From Fibrobacteria bacterium (GTDB lineage: Bacteria > Fibrobacterota > Fibrobacteria > UBA11236): a stretch of 56,433 nt of DNA. The notes below the pieces were generated by a model that ran no database searches, was not told the DNA's origin, and was given only the letters and a program-made list of their open reading frames with translations. Location of the stretch: NCBI GenBank assembly GCA_025360005.1, contig JANYDA010000055.1, forward strand, positions 1 to 56,433. The letters are read 5' to 3'. This document shows positions 4,843 to 26,034 of this stretch, piece after piece (position 1 is the stretch's first letter; the number at the start of each line of letters is the position of its first letter). A program made the translations under genes and the position numbers.

Positions 4843-6558
4843 TCAAAACAAAGAGTAGAGTTGCGCCAACGGCAGCGAGGCGGCCGGCTCGCAAGTGAGC
4901 AATTCTCCATCGGCCGTGACGGAATAAGTTTCCGGATCCACGCGGATGTCCGGAGTGGAAGAGTTGAGGCGCATGTCCGCTTTGGAAATATCGCGGCAGC
5001 CTTCCACTGCCACCACCGTCTTGGACAATCCGTATTGATCGCGTACGCGCCGCAGGGATGCCTTGGATACGAAAGCCAATGAGGTAAGGCCGACGGCGCC
5101 GCCCAGGGCGCCGAACATGGGGCGTGAATAGTAAGGTTGCGGCGTGGGAATGGAGGCGTTGGGATCCCCCATCTGCGCCTGCACTATATAGCCGCCTTTG
5201 AGAATCATCTCCGGCCGGGATCCGAAGAAGGCCGGCTTCCACAAGACCAGATCCGCCAGCTTGCCTATCTCTATGCTGCCGATTTCCTTGGCCATGCCGT
5301 GCGCTATGGCGGGGTTGATGGTGTACTTGGCGATGTAGCGGCGCACGCGGAAATTATCCGCGCGCAGTCCGGATTCCTCCGGCAAAGGGCCGCGTTGCAC
5401 CTTCATTTTATGCGCGGTTTGCCAAGTGCGCGTGATAACCTCCCCTACGCGGCCCATGGCCTGCGAATCCGAGGACATCATGGAGATGGCGCCCAGATCA
5501 TGGAGGATGTCCTCGGCCGCGATGGTCTCGCCCCGGATGCGGCTCTCGGCAAAGGCGACGTCCTCGGGAATGTTCTTATCCAGATGATGGCAGACCATGA
5601 GCATATCCAGATGCTCGGCCAGGGTATTGACGGTGAAGGGACGCGTGGGATTGGTGGAAGAGGGCAGCACGTTCGGCAGGCTGCACACGCGGATGATATC
5701 GGGCGCATGGCCGCCGCCCGCGCCTTCCGTGTGGAAGCTGTGGATGACGCGGCCTTTGAAGGCGGCGATAGTCGCTTCCACAAAGCCGGATTCATTGAGC
5801 GTGTCCGTATGGATGGCTACCTGGACGTCGTGCTCGTCGGCGATGGCCAGGCAGGCATCGATGGCGGCGGGAGTGGTGCCCCAATCCTCATGCAGCTTGA
5901 GGCCGATGGCGCCCCCTTCGATCTGCTCGGTGAGGCCGCCAGGCAGAGAAGAATTGCCCTTCCCCAGGAAACCGAAATTGAGCGGATAGGCATCGGTGGC
6001 GCGAAGCATCATTTCCAGGTGTCCGGCCCCGGGCGTGCAAGTGGTGGCGTTGGTACCCGTAGCAGGCCCGGTACCCCCGCCCAGCATGGTGGTAATGCCG
6101 GAGGCCAGGGCTTCCCCCACTTGCTGGGGACAGATGAAATGGATATGCGAATCGATGCCGCCCGCGGTGACGATCTGGCCTTCGCCGGCGATGACTTCCG
6201 TAGTGGGGCCCACGATCATGTCCGGATCCACCCCGGGCATGATATGGGGATTGCCCGCCTTGCCGATGCCGCGGATGCGGCCGTCCTTGATCCCCAGATC
6301 GGCTTTATAGATGCCGGTATAATCCACCACCAGGGCATTGGTAATGAGGAGATCCAGCACCGCCGCCTGATGCGCACCCGCCGACTGGCCCTGGCCGTCG
6401 CGGAGCACCTTACCGCCGCCGAACTTGCATTCCTCCCCGTAGACGGTGAAATCCTTTTCCACCTCGATCACCAGCGCGGTGTCGCCCAGCCGCACGCGAT
6501 CCCCCACGGTGGGACCGTACATGTCCGAATAGGCTTGTCTATCGATAGGAAGGCTCAT
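4843..6558 (-). CDS. ureC: Urease catalytic (alpha) subunit UreC
   Basis: The catalytic subunit hydrolyses urea to ammonia and carbamate at a di-nickel site in the cytoplasm. The 571-aa length is standard. All signature pieces are present: the carbamylated lysine at about K221 in GLKLHEDWG, metal-ligand histidines in [13 protein letters not shown] and [22 protein letters not shown], the active-site flap cysteine at about C323 in MVCHHLD, and SSDSQAMGR. The start [20 protein letters not shown] overlaps the stop of the upstream fused subunit gene by the four bases ATGA, indicating translational coupling. Nothing suggests inactivity. Confidence 0.98.
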
Positions 6559-7373
6559 GTCGATCCTTTCGCCGGTTTCCCGGGACCGGACGCTGGCGTG
6601 GGGTTTGCAGCGAATCCGGGATTGGCGGCAAATCCTTGTTCGCGCGCGCGCTGGATGGCCGCTTCGCGGTTGTTGCCGTCCAAAGCGCCGCATATCAACC
6701 CGTTGCCGCCGAACACTATCCGCTCGCCTGCCAGGGGGATCATGCGCACCGATTTGGTTTCGCCCGGCTCAAAGCGCACCGCGGTGCCGCTGGGGATGTC
6801 CAGGCGCAGATCCATCGCTTTGGCCCTATCGAACTCCAGCGAGGCATTGGTTTCAAAGAATGGATAATGCGATCCCACCTGGATGGGCCTATCGCCCAGA
6901 TTAGTCACGTCCACGGCCACGGCCTCGCGATCCGCGTTCAACAGGATGGGCTCCGGGCGGAGGATATATTCGCCCGGTACGGACTCCGAAAAGGGCGGCA
7001 AGGGTATTTTTTGCTTGGGAGGCGGCAAGCCTTCCAGCCCGGATCCGTACAAAGCCCACTCCCCCGTGTCCTTGCAGATGGGTCTATGCACGGTCACGAG
7101 CTTGGTACCGTCCGGGAATGTCCCTTCCACTTGCACCTCATCCACCATATCCGCCACGGCGGGCAGCACCTGGCTGCGTCCCAAGATGCTCCTGCCCTTG
7201 TCCATGAGCACGGCCACGCTTTCCCCTTCGCGGATGAACTCCAGGATTTGCGAAGCGATCAGCGCCACGGCTTCCGGATAATTCAGCCGGATGCCGCGCC
7301 ATAGGCGCTTTTGCGCCAGAGTCCCCGCTCCGTGCAGCATCAGTTTTTCGATGTCCTTGGGCGATAGCCGCAA
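6555..7373 (-). CDS. ureAB: Fused urease gamma-beta subunit (UreA-UreB)
   Basis: Residues 1-100 are the UreA-type gamma subunit ([45 protein letters not shown]). Residues about 130-245 are the UreB-type beta subunit ([36 protein letters not shown]). Such fusions are known from Helicobacter. The start codon is TTG at 7373, because an in-frame stop lies immediately upstream and the family N-terminus begins here; the ribosome site AGGAGGTG six bases upstream is nearly perfect. The C-terminus carries an extra tail with the direct repeat [12 protein letters not shown] followed by a Pro/Gly/Lys-rich end not needed for the fold. Confidence 0.95.
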
Positions 7374-8249
7374 TCACCACCTCCTATGCCAAGGGTTGAA
7401 GCCCAACCAGGCCGCGTCCGCAAGAACCGCGAACAACATATCGTGCAGAGGCTGCAAGTCCCGCCGATCCCCGCCCATGGCGCGGATCACACAGCCTTCG
7501 CCTTCGCGTTTCCCCATTCCCACCCAGATTGCCGCATCGGATCCGGATCCGCCGCCATCCGCGGTGCGGGCCGCCCGCCCCGCTTGGTTAAGGCCCAGGA
7601 TGCCGTCTTCCAGGGTATCCGCCAACCTGAGCGCGCCCTGACCCACCAGGTAGACGCAAAGAAAGGATCGGAATTTCCCGAAATGCCCGCAGCGGAATGG
7701 GTCCAGCGCATCCGGCTCCATTCCAAAACGTTCCGTGATGAGCGGAATGCCGCCGGGTCGCGTAATGCGCAGTTCGGTCCGCAACTCGGTAAAAGCGAAC
7801 ACTTCACCCCTTGCCGTACGCCCGGGCTGGAGCCAATCGAAAAGGATCAAATCCGATTCAGGATGGACTTCCCAACTTTGCGATTGCCGATACCGGCTGC
7901 CCGCGAAGGGAACAACCGGGTCGGGACAGACTACGGCCAAAGAGTTTGCACGAAGCGTGCCAACCGTTTCCTGAGCGCACCCACCCTTACCCTGGCTCCT
8001 ATATACCTTAGTGCTGGATTGGGTGCCGAGATACAGGCGTGATCCCGGATTGCACTCCACATGCATGCCGATAGAATCGCCATCCACCAGGCCTCCGCCA
8101 TAATTGGAGAGATACACCTGGCAGGTCCCTTGTTGCGGGCGGGGATTGATGAACTTAACGGGAGGAAACCCCAAGCAGCGCGTCAAGCGCGACGTTGGTC
8201 CGTCCCGATCTATCGCGATGGAATTCCAGCCCGGCATCATCGATATCAT
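7374..8249 (-). CDS. ureD: Urease accessory protein UreD (UreH)
   Basis: UreD binds apo-urease and is the scaffold through which UreF and UreG deliver nickel. Recognisable pieces are NYGGGLVDGDSI, the GTQSSTKVYRS strand, SDLILFDWLQPGRTARGE and a C-terminal segment FAVLADAAWLGFNPW. At 291 aa it is of normal length. The first ATG is at 8249; in-frame ATGs at 8240 and 8237 are also possible and the latter (MPGWNS) fits the family N-terminus better. It is the first gene of the leftward urease operon, and its stop codon directly abuts the TTG start of ureAB. Confidence 0.9.
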   Translation of the reverse strand: MISMMPGWNSIAIDRDGPTSRLTRCLGFPPVKFINPRPQQGTCQVYLSNYGGGLVDGDSIGMHVECNPGSRLYLGTQSSTKVYRSQGKGGCAQETVGTLRANSLAVVCPDPVVPFAGSRYRQSQSWEVHPESDLILFDWLQPGRTARGEVFAFTELRTELRITRPGGIPLITERFGMEPDALDPFRCGHFGKFRSFLCVYLVGQGALRLADTLEDGILGLNQAGRAARTADGGGSGSDAAIWVGMGKREGEGCVIRAMGGDRRDLQPLHDMLFAVLADAAWLGFNPWHRRW

Positions 8250-8263
8250 TCATGGGCTAGATT

Positions 8264-8279
8264 AGCAATTTTCCATCCA
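8264..8279 (-). promoter_or_regulatory. Weak sigma-54-like site ahead of the urease operon
   Basis: On the minus strand TGGATGGAAAATTGCT has GG and GC separated by exactly ten bases and a perfect TTGCT -12 box, but the -24 box (TGGATG) is poor. Transcription would begin near 8253, leaving almost no leader if translation starts at 8249 and a short one if it starts at 8237. It is offered as a candidate only. Confidence 0.3.
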
Positions 8280-8414
8280 GATGGATTCCAGACATTTGCC
8301 TTACACTTTAGGTTTTTGTTACGAACTGTCGGATGCGCATCTCCTTTTTGTCACTCGTTGTCCATACCTGGATTGCAAATGACGTTCTGGCAAGCAAAGC
8401 GCGCAACCGGATTG

Positions 8415-8430
8415 TGGCACCCGAATTGCT
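8415..8430 (+). promoter_or_regulatory. Sigma-54 (-24/-12) promoter of the urt operon
   Basis: TGGCACCCGAATTGCT matches the sigma-54 consensus TGGCAC-N5-TTGCW at every position, with GG and GC ten bases apart. The expected start is near 8441, giving a leader of about 40 bases that includes the purine-rich ribosome site GGAGAGGAGAG before the urtA ATG at 8481. Sigma-54 control with NtrC is the usual arrangement for urea transport under nitrogen limitation; I did not find an obvious NtrC box. Confidence 0.75.
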
Positions 8431-8480
8431 TTTCCCAGCTACGTCCAATCAAACCGAAACTTCGGAGAGGAGAGTCGATA

Positions 8481-9791
8481 ATGAAGCATTCGAAAAACAT
8501 TTTCCATGCCGCCCGCGCAGGTATGGGGGCCTTGGCCTTAGGCCTGGCCGCATTTTCCCAGGCCCCCGCGGCCGACACGCCCGTCAAGGCGCAAGAGATC
8601 GTCAAGGTTGGCATCCTGCACTCCTTGAGCGGTACCATGGCCATTTCCGAAGTGTCCCTGAAAGACGTGGTTACCATGGCCGTGGATGAGATCAATGCCA
8701 AGGGCGGCGTGCTCGGCAAAAAGATCGAGACCGTGGTAGTCGATCCCGCTTCCGATTGGGATCTTTTCGCGGAAAAAGCCAAGCAGCTCGTACAGGTTGA
8801 CAAGGTCGCCGTGACCTTCGGTTGCTGGACCTCGGTCTCGCGCAAATCGGTGCTGCCCGTGTTTGAAGGCGCCGACGCCTTGTTGTTCTACCCCGTGCAG
8901 TACGAAGGCGAAGAATGCTCGAAGAGCGTGTTCTACACCGGCGCCACCCCCAACCAGCAATTGATCCCGGCGGCGGAATACCTGATGAGCAAAGACGGCG
9001 GAGAGTACAAGAAGTTCTACTTGCTGGGAACGGACTACGTCTTCCCGCGCACTGCGAACAAAATCCTGCGCGCCTTCCTGTTGGCCAAGGGCGTGCCCGC
9101 CGCCAATATCGAGGAAGAGTACACCCCGTTCCATCACCAGGATTATCAGACCATCGTGGGCAAGATCAAGAAGTTCGCGGCGGGCGGAAAAGCCGCCGTG
9201 CTTTCCACCATCAACGGCGATTCGAACGTGCCTTTCTACAAGGAGTTCGCGAACCAGGGGCTGACCTCGGCGATGTGCCCCATCATGGCCTTCTCCGTTG
9301 CGGAAGACGAACTGCGCGCCATGGATACCCAATACCTGGTGGGCCACTTGGCCGCTTGGAACTACTACCAATCGGTGAAGGTTCCCTCCAATCAGACTTT
9401 CGTCAAAGCCTTCAAAGCATTCGCCAAGAAGAACAACCTGCCCGGCGGCGACAAGCGCGTGACGGATGATCCGATGGAAGCCGCTTACATCAGCGTCAAC
9501 ATCTGGGCCCTCGCTGCCGCCAAGGCAGGTTCCTTCGACGTGGACAAGGTCCGGAAAGCCGCTTACGGCATGACCTTCCAGGCCCCGGGCGGAATGGTGA
9601 AGATGGATGAGCGCAACCAGCACTTGCACAAGCCCGTCCTGATCGGCGAGATCAAGAAGGACGGTCAGTTCAAGGTGGTGTGGAAGTCCAAGGGACTCGT
9701 CGCGCCGGAGCCCTGGTCCATCTACACCAGCCCGGACAAGGGTTGCGATCACGTGGATCATGAAGGCACGTATACCAAGGCCGGAAAGTAA
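8481..9791 (+). CDS. urtA: Urea ABC transporter substrate-binding protein UrtA
   Basis: UrtA is the periplasmic receptor of the high-affinity urea importer. A signal peptide (residues about 1-30) precedes a type-1 periplasmic-binding fold of the branched-chain-amino-acid/amide family: VKVGILHSLSGTMAISE, AVDEINAKGGVLGKKIE, TFGCWTSVSRKSVLP and LFYPVQYEGEECS. The last two are characteristic of urea/short-chain-amide receptors. The 436-aa length is normal. The start at 8481 is chosen because it gives the signal peptide and follows a good ribosome site; the frame is open about 420 bases further upstream without support. It heads urtABCDE, divergent from the urease operon. Confidence 0.96.
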   Translation: MKHSKNIFHAARAGMGALALGLAAFSQAPAADTPVKAQEIVKVGILHSLSGTMAISEVSLKDVVTMAVDEINAKGGVLGKKIETVVVDPASDWDLFAEKAKQLVQVDKVAVTFGCWTSVSRKSVLPVFEGADALLFYPVQYEGEECSKSVFYTGATPNQQLIPAAEYLMSKDGGEYKKFYLLGTDYVFPRTANKILRAFLLAKGVPAANIEEEYTPFHHQDYQTIVGKIKKFAAGGKAAVLSTINGDSNVPFYKEFANQGLTSAMCPIMAFSVAEDELRAMDTQYLVGHLAAWNYYQSVKVPSNQTFVKAFKAFAKKNNLPGGDKRVTDDPMEAAYISVNIWALAAAKAGSFDVDKVRKAAYGMTFQAPGGMVKMDERNQHLHKPVLIGEIKKDGQFKVVWKSKGLVAPEPWSIYTSPDKGCDHVDHEGTYTKAGK

Positions 9792-22647: not shown

Positions 22648-23712
22648 TCAGGGCGTCACGACGGGCGCCACCAAGCGCCTTCCTTCCGAGGTCCGGAGCT
22701 CCGCCCAGAGCAGCATGGGCTTCCCTCGTCCCTCGGAGGGAGAATCCAGGGTAACCGCCGTGTAACCTGGGCCGGCCTCCGTTACGGGCTTTACCGTGGT
22801 CTGGCCGCGCATCCTTCCAGCCCCGTCGAAAAGGGAAATCTTCATGGGCCCGATCTCGCCCGGTAGCCTGATTTCCAGGCGAATGCTTCCGGGAGCCGCG
22901 AAGGCACGGAAGGCTGCCGCGCGACCGCGGGCTTCCCCGGGGCGCACTCCCTGGGAACCGCAGGCCTGGCTGTCCCGCCAAAGGGGATCCTTGCCTGTGG
23001 CCCACGCCGCAATCGCGCCCGATAAGTTGCAGAGCTGGTTGCTGGTAAGGGTCACTTTAGCAGCGGCGGGCAATTGGATCATTTCGTCGGGAAGGGAATT
23101 CAACTGGTTGTTGGTCAGGTCGAGAGTGTCCAGCACGGCCAAGGTGCCCACCGAGTGGGGCAGAGTCGTCAGTTGATTGCCGGACAGATCCAAGTACTTC
23201 AGGAAAACCAGGCCACCCATCCCTCCGGGCAGGGAAGTGAGAAGGTTATCCGCCAGTACCAGGTTCTCCAGGTTCTCCAGACCCTTAAACGAGGAGGGCA
23301 AGGCGGCCAGGGTGTTCCCGCGCAAGTCGAGAGACAGCAGGTTGCCCAGGCGCACCACTCCCGAGTCCAGGGCATTGAGGCCGTTGCCGGAAAGGTTCAG
23401 CGTCACCAGGCTTTCCAGGGCCCATATGCCGTCCGGCAAGGAATCGATCAGGTTGTCCGAGAGGTCCAGGGACTTGAGATTGGTGAGGGCGGATATTTCC
23501 GTAGACACGCTGAGGATGGAAAGGCCCTTGAGGTTCAGGGCCGTGATCCTCCCCCCCGCGGCCGTGGAAACCTGGGAAACCTGCATGTTACCCAGGCCGT
23601 TCTCGGCCAGGATGATACGCACAGCCAGCGAATCCTCCGAGTATGATTGACATCTCGCGGGGGCGGCGGCCAATGCGGCCAGGCAGAAACATCCGATCAG
23701 CATTCTCAACAT
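22648..23712 (-). CDS. Secreted leucine-rich-repeat protein, 354 aa
   Basis: A signal peptide (about 1-21) is followed by about seven 23-residue leucine-rich repeats (residues 55-215), for example LTNLKSLDLSDNLIDSLP and LVFLKYLDLSGNQLTTLP, which form a curved protein- or glycan-binding surface. Residues about 265-354 form a beta-rich C-terminal domain (IRLEIRLPGEIGPMKISLFD, ending LRTSEGRRLVAPVVTP) reminiscent of the C-terminal sorting domains of surface proteins secreted by type IX systems. That resemblance is by eye only. It is transcribed towards the HxlR gene and is divergent from the LTxxQ protein gene. Confidence 0.8.
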   Translation of the reverse strand: MLRMLIGCFCLAALAAAPARCQSYSEDSLAVRIILAENGLGNMQVSQVSTAAGGRITALNLKGLSILSVSTEISALTNLKSLDLSDNLIDSLPDGIWALESLVTLNLSGNGLNALDSGVVRLGNLLSLDLRGNTLAALPSSFKGLENLENLVLADNLLTSLPGGMGGLVFLKYLDLSGNQLTTLPHSVGTLAVLDTLDLTNNQLNSLPDEMIQLPAAAKVTLTSNQLCNLSGAIAAWATGKDPLWRDSQACGSQGVRPGEARGRAAAFRAFAAPGSIRLEIRLPGEIGPMKISLFDGAGRMRGQTTVKPVTEAGPGYTAVTLDSPSEGRGKPMLLWAELRTSEGRRLVAPVVTP

Positions 23713-23896
23713 GGATTTCCTTCACGTTACGCGGCCGGATCCGGTCCGCACCTTGCCTAAAGTAGCACCCGGCTTCCCTTTCGCAACAGCATTCAGTGTC
23801 CCTTTCAGTACAGAGGCCATGGACCGATGGGAACACGGGCCGTGGGGAAAGGCATATTTCCCACGCATTTTCAAGAGAAATAAACCTTTTTCCGGG

Positions 23897-23920
23897 AACC
23901 TTGGGGTTGGCACCAAGGTT
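23897..23920. repeat. 8-bp inverted repeat upstream of the LTxxQ protein gene
   Basis: AACCTTGG (23897-23904) and CCAAGGTT (23913-23920) pair perfectly around an 8-base spacer, 56 bases before the ATG at 23976. It is next to the palindrome at 23936-23951. Hairpin or operator cannot be distinguished. Confidence 0.4.
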
Positions 23921-23935
23921 GCTCAAGTCGGAAGC

Positions 23936-23951
23936 ACCCCCATATGGGGGT
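23936..23951. promoter_or_regulatory. CsoR/RcnR-like palindromic operator
   Basis: ACCCCCATATGGGGGT is a perfect 16-bp palindrome made of C- and G-tracts around ATAT. Operators of the metal-sensing CsoR/RcnR repressors have this C-tract/G-tract design. It lies 24 bases before the start codon of a His-rich periplasmic protein, where a bound repressor would block transcription. No CsoR gene is present in the window; assignment rests on pattern and context. Confidence 0.45.
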
Positions 23952-23975
23952 CAAACAAAATAATAGGAGTTCGCA

Positions 23976-24593
23976 ATGAACAAATTCATGATGAGTGCCC
24001 TTCTGGCAGGCAGCTTGGCGGTGGGAGTGTCTTTCGCCGCTCCGGTCAAAGATTCCCTCACGGCCGAGCAGAAAGCGGAATGGGCCGCCAAGCGCGAGGC
24101 CATGAAAGCAAAGCATGACAGCCTCAAGACGGCCAACAAGGGCGAGATGGATGCGGCCCGCGCCGCCGCCAAGGCTGCCCGTGAAGCCGCCCAGGCCAAG
24201 TTCAAAACCCTGATCGACGCCTACAAGGCCGGCATTGCCGCAGCCAAGACCGACGCCGAGAAAGCCGCCTTGAAGACCAAGCTGGAAGCCGACATGAAGG
24301 CTCTCCGCGCCACGCTGGGTGATAGCCTGGGCAAAGCCCGCGGCGACTTCCATTCCAGGCACGAAGAGTTCAAGAAGCGCGGCCATGACGGCGACAGCGC
24401 CAAAGCCGGCGGTCTCACCCCTGAGCAGATCGCGGAACTGAAGAAGAAGTTTGAAGACTTCAGGAAGGGTCACGATAAGGGCGACAGCACCCATGTGCAT
24501 TTCCCGGACAGCCTCCATGTACGCGACAGCCTCCATATCCATCATCCTGACAGCCTCGAAATCCACCACCCCAAGCCCGACTCCGCCAAGTAA
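23976..24593 (+). CDS. LTxxQ-motif periplasmic protein with His-rich repeat tail, 205 aa
   Basis: A signal peptide (residues 1-22) is followed by a highly helical, Lys/Ala/Glu-rich body. Two LTxxQ motifs are present, LTAEQ at 28-32 and LTPEQ at 147-151, the hallmark of the Spy/CpxP/ZraP family of periplasmic stress and metal-responsive proteins. The tail (about 168-205) is an imperfect DS-x-H/E-V/I-H repeat (DSTHVHFP, DSLHVR, DSLHIHHP, DSLEIHHP) with about eight histidines, likely able to bind transition metals. The start follows TAGGAG. A CsoR-like palindrome lies just upstream. Metal scavenging or sensing is inferred. Confidence 0.75.
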   Translation: MNKFMMSALLAGSLAVGVSFAAPVKDSLTAEQKAEWAAKREAMKAKHDSLKTANKGEMDAARAAAKAAREAAQAKFKTLIDAYKAGIAAAKTDAEKAALKTKLEADMKALRATLGDSLGKARGDFHSRHEEFKKRGHDGDSAKAGGLTPEQIAELKKKFEDFRKGHDKGDSTHVHFPDSLHVRDSLHIHHPDSLEIHHPKPDSAK

Positions 24594-24663: not shown

Positions 24664-24691
24664 GGCTCCTGCCGCAAGGCAGGAGCCTTTT
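24664..24691 (+). terminator. Strong terminator after the LTxxQ gene
   Basis: GGCTCCTGCC (24664-24673) and GGCAGGAGCC (24678-24687) form a perfect 10-bp stem with a GCAA tetraloop, followed by TTTTC. It ends only about 15 bases before the ATG of the next gene. Confidence 0.88.
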
Positions 24692-24705: not shown

Positions 24706-26034
24706 ATGATTTTCCTAGCCTGTCTGTTGCTCGCCCTCATTCCCCTGGAAGCAAGGACGCCTCCCGTTCCTCCCAAGATCGCGGCCATGGCTTCCGCGTC
24801 CAAGGTCCGACCCCCTCTCTCTCCGGCCAAACTCGGAGGATGCAAAACCTACGTCGATTCGGTGGCGAACGCCTTCGATCGGGACGAACCGGAATACCTG
24901 GAGTGGCCCCTGCCCGTGGAGGAATGCACCGAGGCGCAGAATTACCGCATCTACTATTACCGGGGGATGGGCTCCTATTTCCTGTCGAGCTGGGGCGACG
25001 CCCTCCTCTACTTCGGCCTAGCCAAACAGATCGGCGGCCCCGAGGACGAGCAGGTGCTGTACTACCTATGGCGCACTCACGGGAAGCTGGGGGATTCCCC
25101 TGAACAGACCCAGTTGATCTGGGAGTTCTACAACCGTTTTCCGCAATCCTCCCATCTGGGGAACATGTTCTCCGAGTGGAAAACAGACACCCGCCCCAGT
25201 CTTTGGTCCCTTTCAATGACAAATTCCGTTTCGCAATCGGAAAGTCCGGGATACAGCAGTACGCGCATCCGCGACCAGTTCTCCGCCTCCATCGGGCAGA
25301 GCGCCGGCAACCATCGCTTCCGGGAATCGGTGGCGCTTTCCATCAACACCGATCCCGAAACCCGGATCTTCGGCGAATGGCAGGGTAACCTGACCGGTGA
25401 GTACCGTTACAAGGGCCTGTCCGCCAACCTCAATTGGGGCAGCACGTATGCCCGGGCCGCTACGGCGATATCCGCCCTGGACACAGTCGGAACGCCGGGA
25501 ACGCTATCCGTGGACCAGTACCAGGCCGATATCGGCTACTCCCTGGATTTGGGCAAGATCGTGAACACGGAGTTCCAACTACAGGGCATCCATCCCCGCG
25601 CGGGATGGACCATGGCCAGCTTTGGCCAGAGCCTCACCACATTGGCTGGCGAAGTCTACCTGCAAGGCACATGGACGGTGGAGCGCCACTGGATGAGCTT
25701 CTTCCCCGTCGACTCCCTCTTCCCTACCCTCAACGGCCAATGGGTGGGCAATCTGGGGGCCTATGCTTTCTACGAACTGGGCAAGCACGGGTTCTCCCTG
25801 GGCACGGAATACCGCTGGGACAAGGAGACCTACGCTCCCGCGCTGGATACCATCCTTCTCCTGGATGTCACTCCCAACGTCGGCAAGACCCTGGCCGCGG
25901 TAGCGGGCTATTCCTTCCGCCCCGCAGCCTGGTGCGATGTGGATTTCCAGGGCAAGTGGGGGCACGTGTACAACAGCGAAACCGCCGACGGCCGCGTCCT
26001 GCAGTTCTACATCGCCCTAAGCCTGCATCGCTGA
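24706..26034 (+). CDS. Outer-membrane protein with helical N-terminal region and beta-barrel, 442 aa
   Basis: A hydrophobic start (MIFLACLLLALIPLEA) serves as signal peptide. Residues about 45-165 are helical and TPR-like (YYYRGMGSYFLSSWGDALLYF). Residues about 175-442 are alternating beta-strands (TRIFGEWQGNLTGEYRYKGL, LGAYAFYELGKHGFSLGTEY) typical of an outer-membrane barrel. Function is unknown. No ribosome site is visible before 24706, and a strong terminator ends about 15 bases upstream, so either a very short leader is used or the true start is further in (for example ATG at 24787). Confidence 0.7.
   Translation: MIFLACLLLALIPLEARTPPVPPKIAAMASASKVRPPLSPAKLGGCKTYVDSVANAFDRDEPEYLEWPLPVEECTEAQNYRIYYYRGMGSYFLSSWGDALLYFGLAKQIGGPEDEQVLYYLWRTHGKLGDSPEQTQLIWEFYNRFPQSSHLGNMFSEWKTDTRPSLWSLSMTNSVSQSESPGYSSTRIRDQFSASIGQSAGNHRFRESVALSINTDPETRIFGEWQGNLTGEYRYKGLSANLNWGSTYARAATAISALDTVGTPGTLSVDQYQADIGYSLDLGKIVNTEFQLQGIHPRAGWTMASFGQSLTTLAGEVYLQGTWTVERHWMSFFPVDSLFPTLNGQWVGNLGAYAFYELGKHGFSLGTEYRWDKETYAPALDTILLLDVTPNVGKTLAAVAGYSFRPAAWCDVDFQGKWGHVYNSETADGRVLQFYIALSLHR

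Follow-up and report, generated by a model that had tools for sequence, protein, structure and literature searches.

The locus described here raises the question of what controls the gene of a small secreted protein in a member of the Fibrobacterota, and what a perfect palindrome that stands just in front of this gene has to do with its control. The window, by which we mean the whole stretch of 56,433 nucleotides that was analysed, had been the subject of a preliminary description in which the palindrome was taken to be the operator of a CsoR/RcnR-type metal repressor, and the protein, which we call X, to be a metal-induced periplasmic buffer or sensor with LTxxQ motifs. The palindrome is indeed perfect, and it is separated from the open reading frame of X by 24 bases, as had been stated. 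However, the CsoR reading fails; the conserved control element before X is a predicted sigma-54 promoter, and the circuit that we propose instead is a variant on a known type. The more unusual points are the lineage-specific histidine-rich tail of X and the separation of the X gene from its likely regulator. The features to which we refer are listed in Table 1.

Table 1. Features of the X gene and its surroundings, in window coordinates.
Feature	Position	Strand	Remarks
Divergent leucine-rich-repeat (LRR) secreted protein	22648-23712	-	Pfam LRR; divergent neighbor of X at each of the five loci
Candidate enhancer region, GTGTCCC...GGGAACAC	23796-23836	+	About -138 to -98; degenerate in the window
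Inverted repeat, AACCTTGG-N8-CCAAGGTT	23897-23920	.	Overlaps the sigma-54 element
Predicted sigma-54 promoter, TGGCACCAAGGTTGCT	23908-23923	+	-24 TGGCAC, -12 TTGCT; exact match, conserved in 5/5 orthologues
Predicted transcription start	23934	+	From sigma-54 geometry; 12 nt past the C of TTGC in the -12 element
Palindrome, ACCCCCATATGGGGGT	23936-23951	+	Perfect; predicted mRNA +3 to +18, 6-bp stem, AUAU loop
Ribosome-binding site region, ATAGGAGTT	23963-23971	+	From sequence; AGGAG conserved in orthologues
Protein X, secreted helical coiled-coil, 205 aa	23976-24593	+	Orthologues in 4/5 other same-genus genomes
His-rich tail, residues 166-205, 9 His	24471-24590	+	DS-[TL]-x-[VI]-[HR] repeats; disordered by prediction (pLDDT about 38)
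Intrinsic terminator downstream of X; 10-bp stem followed by TTTTCGTATC	24664-24687	+	One found in region
Paralogue of the outer-membrane-type protein that neighbors X in the relatives	24706-26034	+	26-32% identity to the OMP442 family

The proposal of a CsoR/RcnR operator, with the gene derepressed by Cu, Ni or Co, has two points in its favor. The palindrome shares with such operators a dyad of a C-tract and a G-tract, and a search of the genome for csoR, as the preliminary description had suggested, found a single csoR gene, apparently beside a copper-ATPase-like gene as read from the sequence. However, type 2 CsoR sites consist of a TAC-X9-GTA inverted repeat around G-tracts (PMC3902906), whereas the palindrome lacks these arms and reads CAC-X12-GTC, with 12 bases between its ends instead of 9. 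The csoR genes of the genus (L012, L013 and L014) have a candidate operator of their own, of the type TACCCACCCCAGGGGGGGAGGGTA, which is conserved before csoR in two relatives (G002 and G004) and present in a close version in the window's genome, and the palindrome is not like it. Furthermore, no csoR was found in G003 or G005, both of which carry X in drafts that are 95-96% complete, and a sigma-54 promoter requires an activator and needs no repressor. Finally, the orthologues of X are preceded by different sequences at this place, and a lack of conservation of the palindrome is what the preliminary description had named as a refutation of its proposal. For these reasons of arms, spacing, conservation and unlikeness to the genus operator, we reject the palindrome as a CsoR operator and consider control of X by CsoR/RcnR to be highly improbable. 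As a separate observation, at L013 a gene that reads like a copper ATPase is downstream of csoR.

A search for further copies of the palindrome, also suggested earlier, returned nothing exact: it is a single-copy sequence in the 4.98-Mb genome, and the runner-up has two mismatches. Perfect 16-base palindromes as such are not rare in the window, where seven are observed against 1.0 expected from composition, so conservation must decide whether this one matters. The seven are at positions 1413, 23936, 35981, 40575, 48336, 50400 and 55333, and some of them may be terminators. The second inverted repeat that had been reported just upstream of the palindrome is present. However, it overlaps the -24/-12 element of the sigma-54 promoter and was not seen before the orthologues, where only the -24/-12 element is kept, and so it is probably incidental.

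The element that is conserved is TGGCAY-N5-TTGCT, which precedes the gene in all five loci, i.e., the window and four same-genus orthologues. Its distance from the start codon is nearly fixed (68-91 bp), with the longest, in G005, due to an insertion in the leader; in G003, the -24 element reads TGGCAT. The window has the GG at -24 and the GC at -12 with the fixed spacing expected of such promoters. Exact matches to TGGCAYN5TTGCW number 16 in the window's genome against nine for a reversed control, an enrichment of under twofold. Therefore, a lone match would be weak evidence, and it is conservation at the same place in five genomes that makes the case for this promoter strong. Each genome of the genus has one rpoN gene and many activators. 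PF00158 has 23 matches in the window's genome, some of them distant AAA+ proteins; the activators of this genome number roughly 20.

Two other putative sigma-54 promoters were noted in the same genome. One, TGGCACCCGAATTGCT, at 8415-8430 of the window, precedes an ABC-transporter substrate-binding gene; a urease-like ORF and transporter genes are near it (4843-9791), and the region looks like a nitrogen-regulated urea cluster. The other (L021, C21:134985) is just before a gene encoding an Hsp20-like small heat-shock protein.

The gene order in the relatives points to a candidate activator. In G002 and G003, the order is complete, and the genes after X encode an outer-membrane-type protein, two proteins that match no Pfam family, a histidine kinase and a response regulator. 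The order is the same in G005, where the contig end cuts the regulator, and the contig of G001 stops before the kinase. The kinase has HisKA and HATPase_c domains, and the regulator has a receiver, a sigma-54 activator domain and a Fis helix-turn-helix, as in the NtrC family. The best NCBIfam model for the G003 kinase is ZraS, at 102 bits against a cut-off of 479, and the best models for the G003 regulator are AtoC, NtrC and ZraR, all below cut-off (ZraR at 389 against 760 bits); neither protein is a ZraS or ZraR equivalog by these models. Each of the six genomes that represent the genus has the kinase, which was not found in the five family or order relatives tested.

The same relatives have a probable binding array for such an activator. 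The pattern GTAC-N6-GTCC-N6-GTCC-N10-GTAC occurs upstream of X in four of them, at -135 to -145 and with 0-2 mismatches. There are 13 matches to it genus-wide, and in only four cases, all of them before X, is there a nearby sigma-54 promoter, which follows after 110-120 bp. As background, sigma-54 enhancers are often located 70-150 bp upstream (PMC3844500). The region upstream of X in the window has no significant match to the full array matrix (P 0.42), and the proximal half-array has a weak match near the expected place (P 0.017 on the + strand and 0.0035 on the - strand).

The window's genome has an intact kinase/regulator operon, but it is on another contig (C17) and is without X, which is on C18. 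The C17 regulator, at L073:8181-9608 on the minus strand, is 84% identical to that of G003, at L069:15662-17035. The operon is also present without X in G004, which indicates that X is not the only purpose of the pair. We infer that the C17 pair probably controls the window copy of X. However, because the pair is unlinked and the array is degenerate in this genome, another of its activators may do so.

A terminator-like stem after X suggests that X is probably on its own transcript. The single terminator found in the region compares with a mean of 1.7 in shuffles, and so this argument depends on the position and stem length and not on the count. The window's genome has two distant copies of the outer-membrane-type protein (L073 13998-15335 and window 24706-26034), and the other five genomes have one each; this suggests that the X neighborhood was duplicated long ago. 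X itself has a narrow distribution. A class-wide profile search found clear relatives in the same genus only, with weak coiled-coil matches elsewhere, and when about 85,000 species genomes were scanned, the matches were three loci, each in a Fibrobacterota MAG.

If the palindrome is not a CsoR site, what could it be? The geometry of the sigma-54 promoter puts the start of transcription at 23934 and the palindrome, consequently, at +3 to +18 in a leader of 42 nt that reads GC-ACCCCC-AUAU-GGGGGU-CAAACAAAAUAAUAGGAGUUCGCA-AUG. The predicted energy of this hairpin is -11.6 kcal/mol. In each of the five orthologue folds, the predicted transcript opens with a GC-rich stem, from +1 or from +3, and continues with an A-rich linker and AGGAG; the arm sequences differ, and the loops vary in length between 4 and about 28 nt. 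Four of the five orthologues have a strict 4-bp stem at +3/+4, and G005 misses it because its loop is longer than the limit used; none of the 15 other sigma-54 candidates of the window's genome has such a stem, and the chance level is about 4-11% per shuffle. The favored, although not proven, reading is that the palindrome is a 5'-terminal mRNA hairpin.

Two other readings of the palindrome have to be weighed against the mRNA hairpin. One is that it is incidental and that only the sigma-54 promoter matters. The number of perfect 16-mers within the window would agree with this, as would single-sequence fold energies that are unexceptional against shuffles (P 0.06-0.71) and the lack of compensatory pairs in a MAFFT-based alignment fold of the orthologues. 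A stem that starts at +1 or +3 whichever of the five orthologues is folded, and that in its strict form is missing from the other sigma-54 candidates, would not be expected of an incidental palindrome, and we regard this reading as fairly unlikely. The other is that a different dimeric regulator binds over +3 to +18 and adds repression to the sigma-54 promoter. This would account for a perfect dyad just past the start site and for dyads at the same place in the orthologues; however, the arms vary in sequence, the distance between them varies with the loop, and the genome holds no second exact copy, so that such an operator seems very unlikely. Loops of such different lengths and varying arms suit an RNA element better than the fixed footprint of a dimer.

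The predicted mRNA hairpin would resemble the 5'-terminal stabilizing stem-loops of bacterial mRNAs of the ompA type. There, likewise, the stem is at the 5' end or only a few bases from it and is followed by an unstructured leader with the ribosome-binding site; the hairpin of X differs in being only predicted and without covariation support. The case is an example of how a perfect palindrome near a gene can belong to the mRNA leader instead of a repressor site.

The N-terminus of the protein is signal-peptide-like, in agreement with the earlier view that X is secreted, and a multiple alignment gives 35-42% identity between the window protein and the other orthologues. The two LTxxQ motifs described previously are present in the window protein (LTAEQ at 28 and LTPEQ at 147), but the exact motif occurs in only two of the five orthologues, the window protein and that of G005; the second site reads PTPDQ, MTPEQ or IDPAK in the other three. 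The suggested HMM search places X below the Pfam LTXXQ gathering cut-off: the PF07813 scores are 15.6 (window), 21.6, 19.6, 14.5 and none, so that no member reaches 24.3 bits and membership in this family is rejected even for the best of them. NCBIfam models gave only coiled-coil noise on X.

Structure models of X, which are of low-to-medium confidence, have two long helices, a short third one and a disordered tail. The LTxxQ motifs are at helix starts in these models and so may be helix caps. Fold searches gave nothing significant; PspA/Vipp1/ESCRT-III and ferritin-like helices appeared at E of 0.4 and above, which we take as noise, and Spy, CpxP and ZraP structures were absent from the results, an absence that excludes nothing. 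X resembles the LTXXQ family (PF07813; Spy, CpxP and ZraP) in being small, exported and helical and in the two LTxxQ strings of the window and G005 proteins. It differs in that its motifs are about 120-160 residues apart, and Spy has a four-helix fold (PMC8144458) where the X model has two long helices and one short one.

The histidine-rich repeat tail is real. A tail of the DS-x-H type was not found in 12 relatives (search at E <= 0.1) and is present only in the window's genome; at the DNA level, Tandem Repeats Finder reports no tandem repeat there. Its composition makes it plausible that the tail could bind Zn, Ni or Cu. Alternatively, X might be a Skp/OmpH-like or structural coiled coil of the envelope with no sensing role, and the tail might be drift. 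The long two-helix hairpin of the models, weak OmpH matches and a tail confined to one genome are all consistent with a structural protein, which we consider doubtful but a real possibility; it would leave the linkage of X in the relatives to a ZraS-like kinase and an activator, together with a stress-type promoter, without an obvious reason. This linkage and the tail also mean that one part of the original proposal, namely an inducible periplasmic accessory protein of the stress or metal type, survives, whereas its CsoR/RcnR control does not.

Taken together, our best explanation, to which we assign a probability of about two in three, is that X is a periplasmic coiled-coil accessory protein under sigma-54 and two-component control, with a hairpin at the 5' end of its mRNA; the wiring is ZraP-like, whether or not X is homologous to ZraP. 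Sigma-54 RNA polymerase would wait at the promoter until an activated enhancer-binding protein of the NtrC family opens the DNA. The likely activator would be the response regulator of the kinase/regulator pair, which in the relatives comes a few genes after X and here is on C17. The mRNA would begin with the short GC hairpin; an A-rich, single-stranded linker would come next and then the ribosome-binding site, and the 5' stem may protect the mRNA end or prevent structure over the ribosome-binding site. After export, X would form a long helical hairpin and, like ZraP, may either buffer misfolded envelope proteins or give the kinase feedback. In this genome, the tail may add metal binding. Of this account, the sequence directly shows the promoter with its conservation, the position of the palindrome and the linkage of the genes in the relatives; the activator of the window copy, the function of the RNA hairpin, the chaperone or feedback activity of X and the binding of metals are inferred.

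A bolder version is also conceivable. This would be an envelope-stress circuit specific to the Fibrobacterota, with ZraP-like wiring, an X unrelated by descent to ZraP or Spy and a conserved 5' hairpin, in which one lineage gained a metal-responsive His-repeat tail while the gene left its kinase/regulator pair; we think this unlikely as a whole. Feedback of X on the kinase, if it occurs, would point to an origin of ZraP-like wiring around an unrelated protein. As far as the literature we searched goes, little regulation has been worked out in the Fibrobacterota, and none of the matches listed for sigma-54 was about Fibrobacter. The sigma-54 circuit is a testable replacement for the copper-repressor guess, and it names a likely kinase, activator and enhancer array.

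The closest known system is ZraP-ZraSR of E. coli and Salmonella, which in E. coli serves in zinc and envelope stress and which also has an exported accessory protein, a sigma-54 promoter and a nearby sensor kinase with an NtrC-family regulator; ZraR drives the sigma-54 promoter of zraP (PMC4987338). The kinase linked to X even has ZraS as its best NCBIfam model. However, the kinase and the regulator of the X loci score far below the ZraS and ZraR cut-offs, and AtoC and NtrC outscore ZraR for the regulator. The arrangement is also different, because three genes separate X from the kinase and a divergent LRR protein is beside X. In the window's genome, finally, the kinase/regulator pair is unlinked to X altogether.
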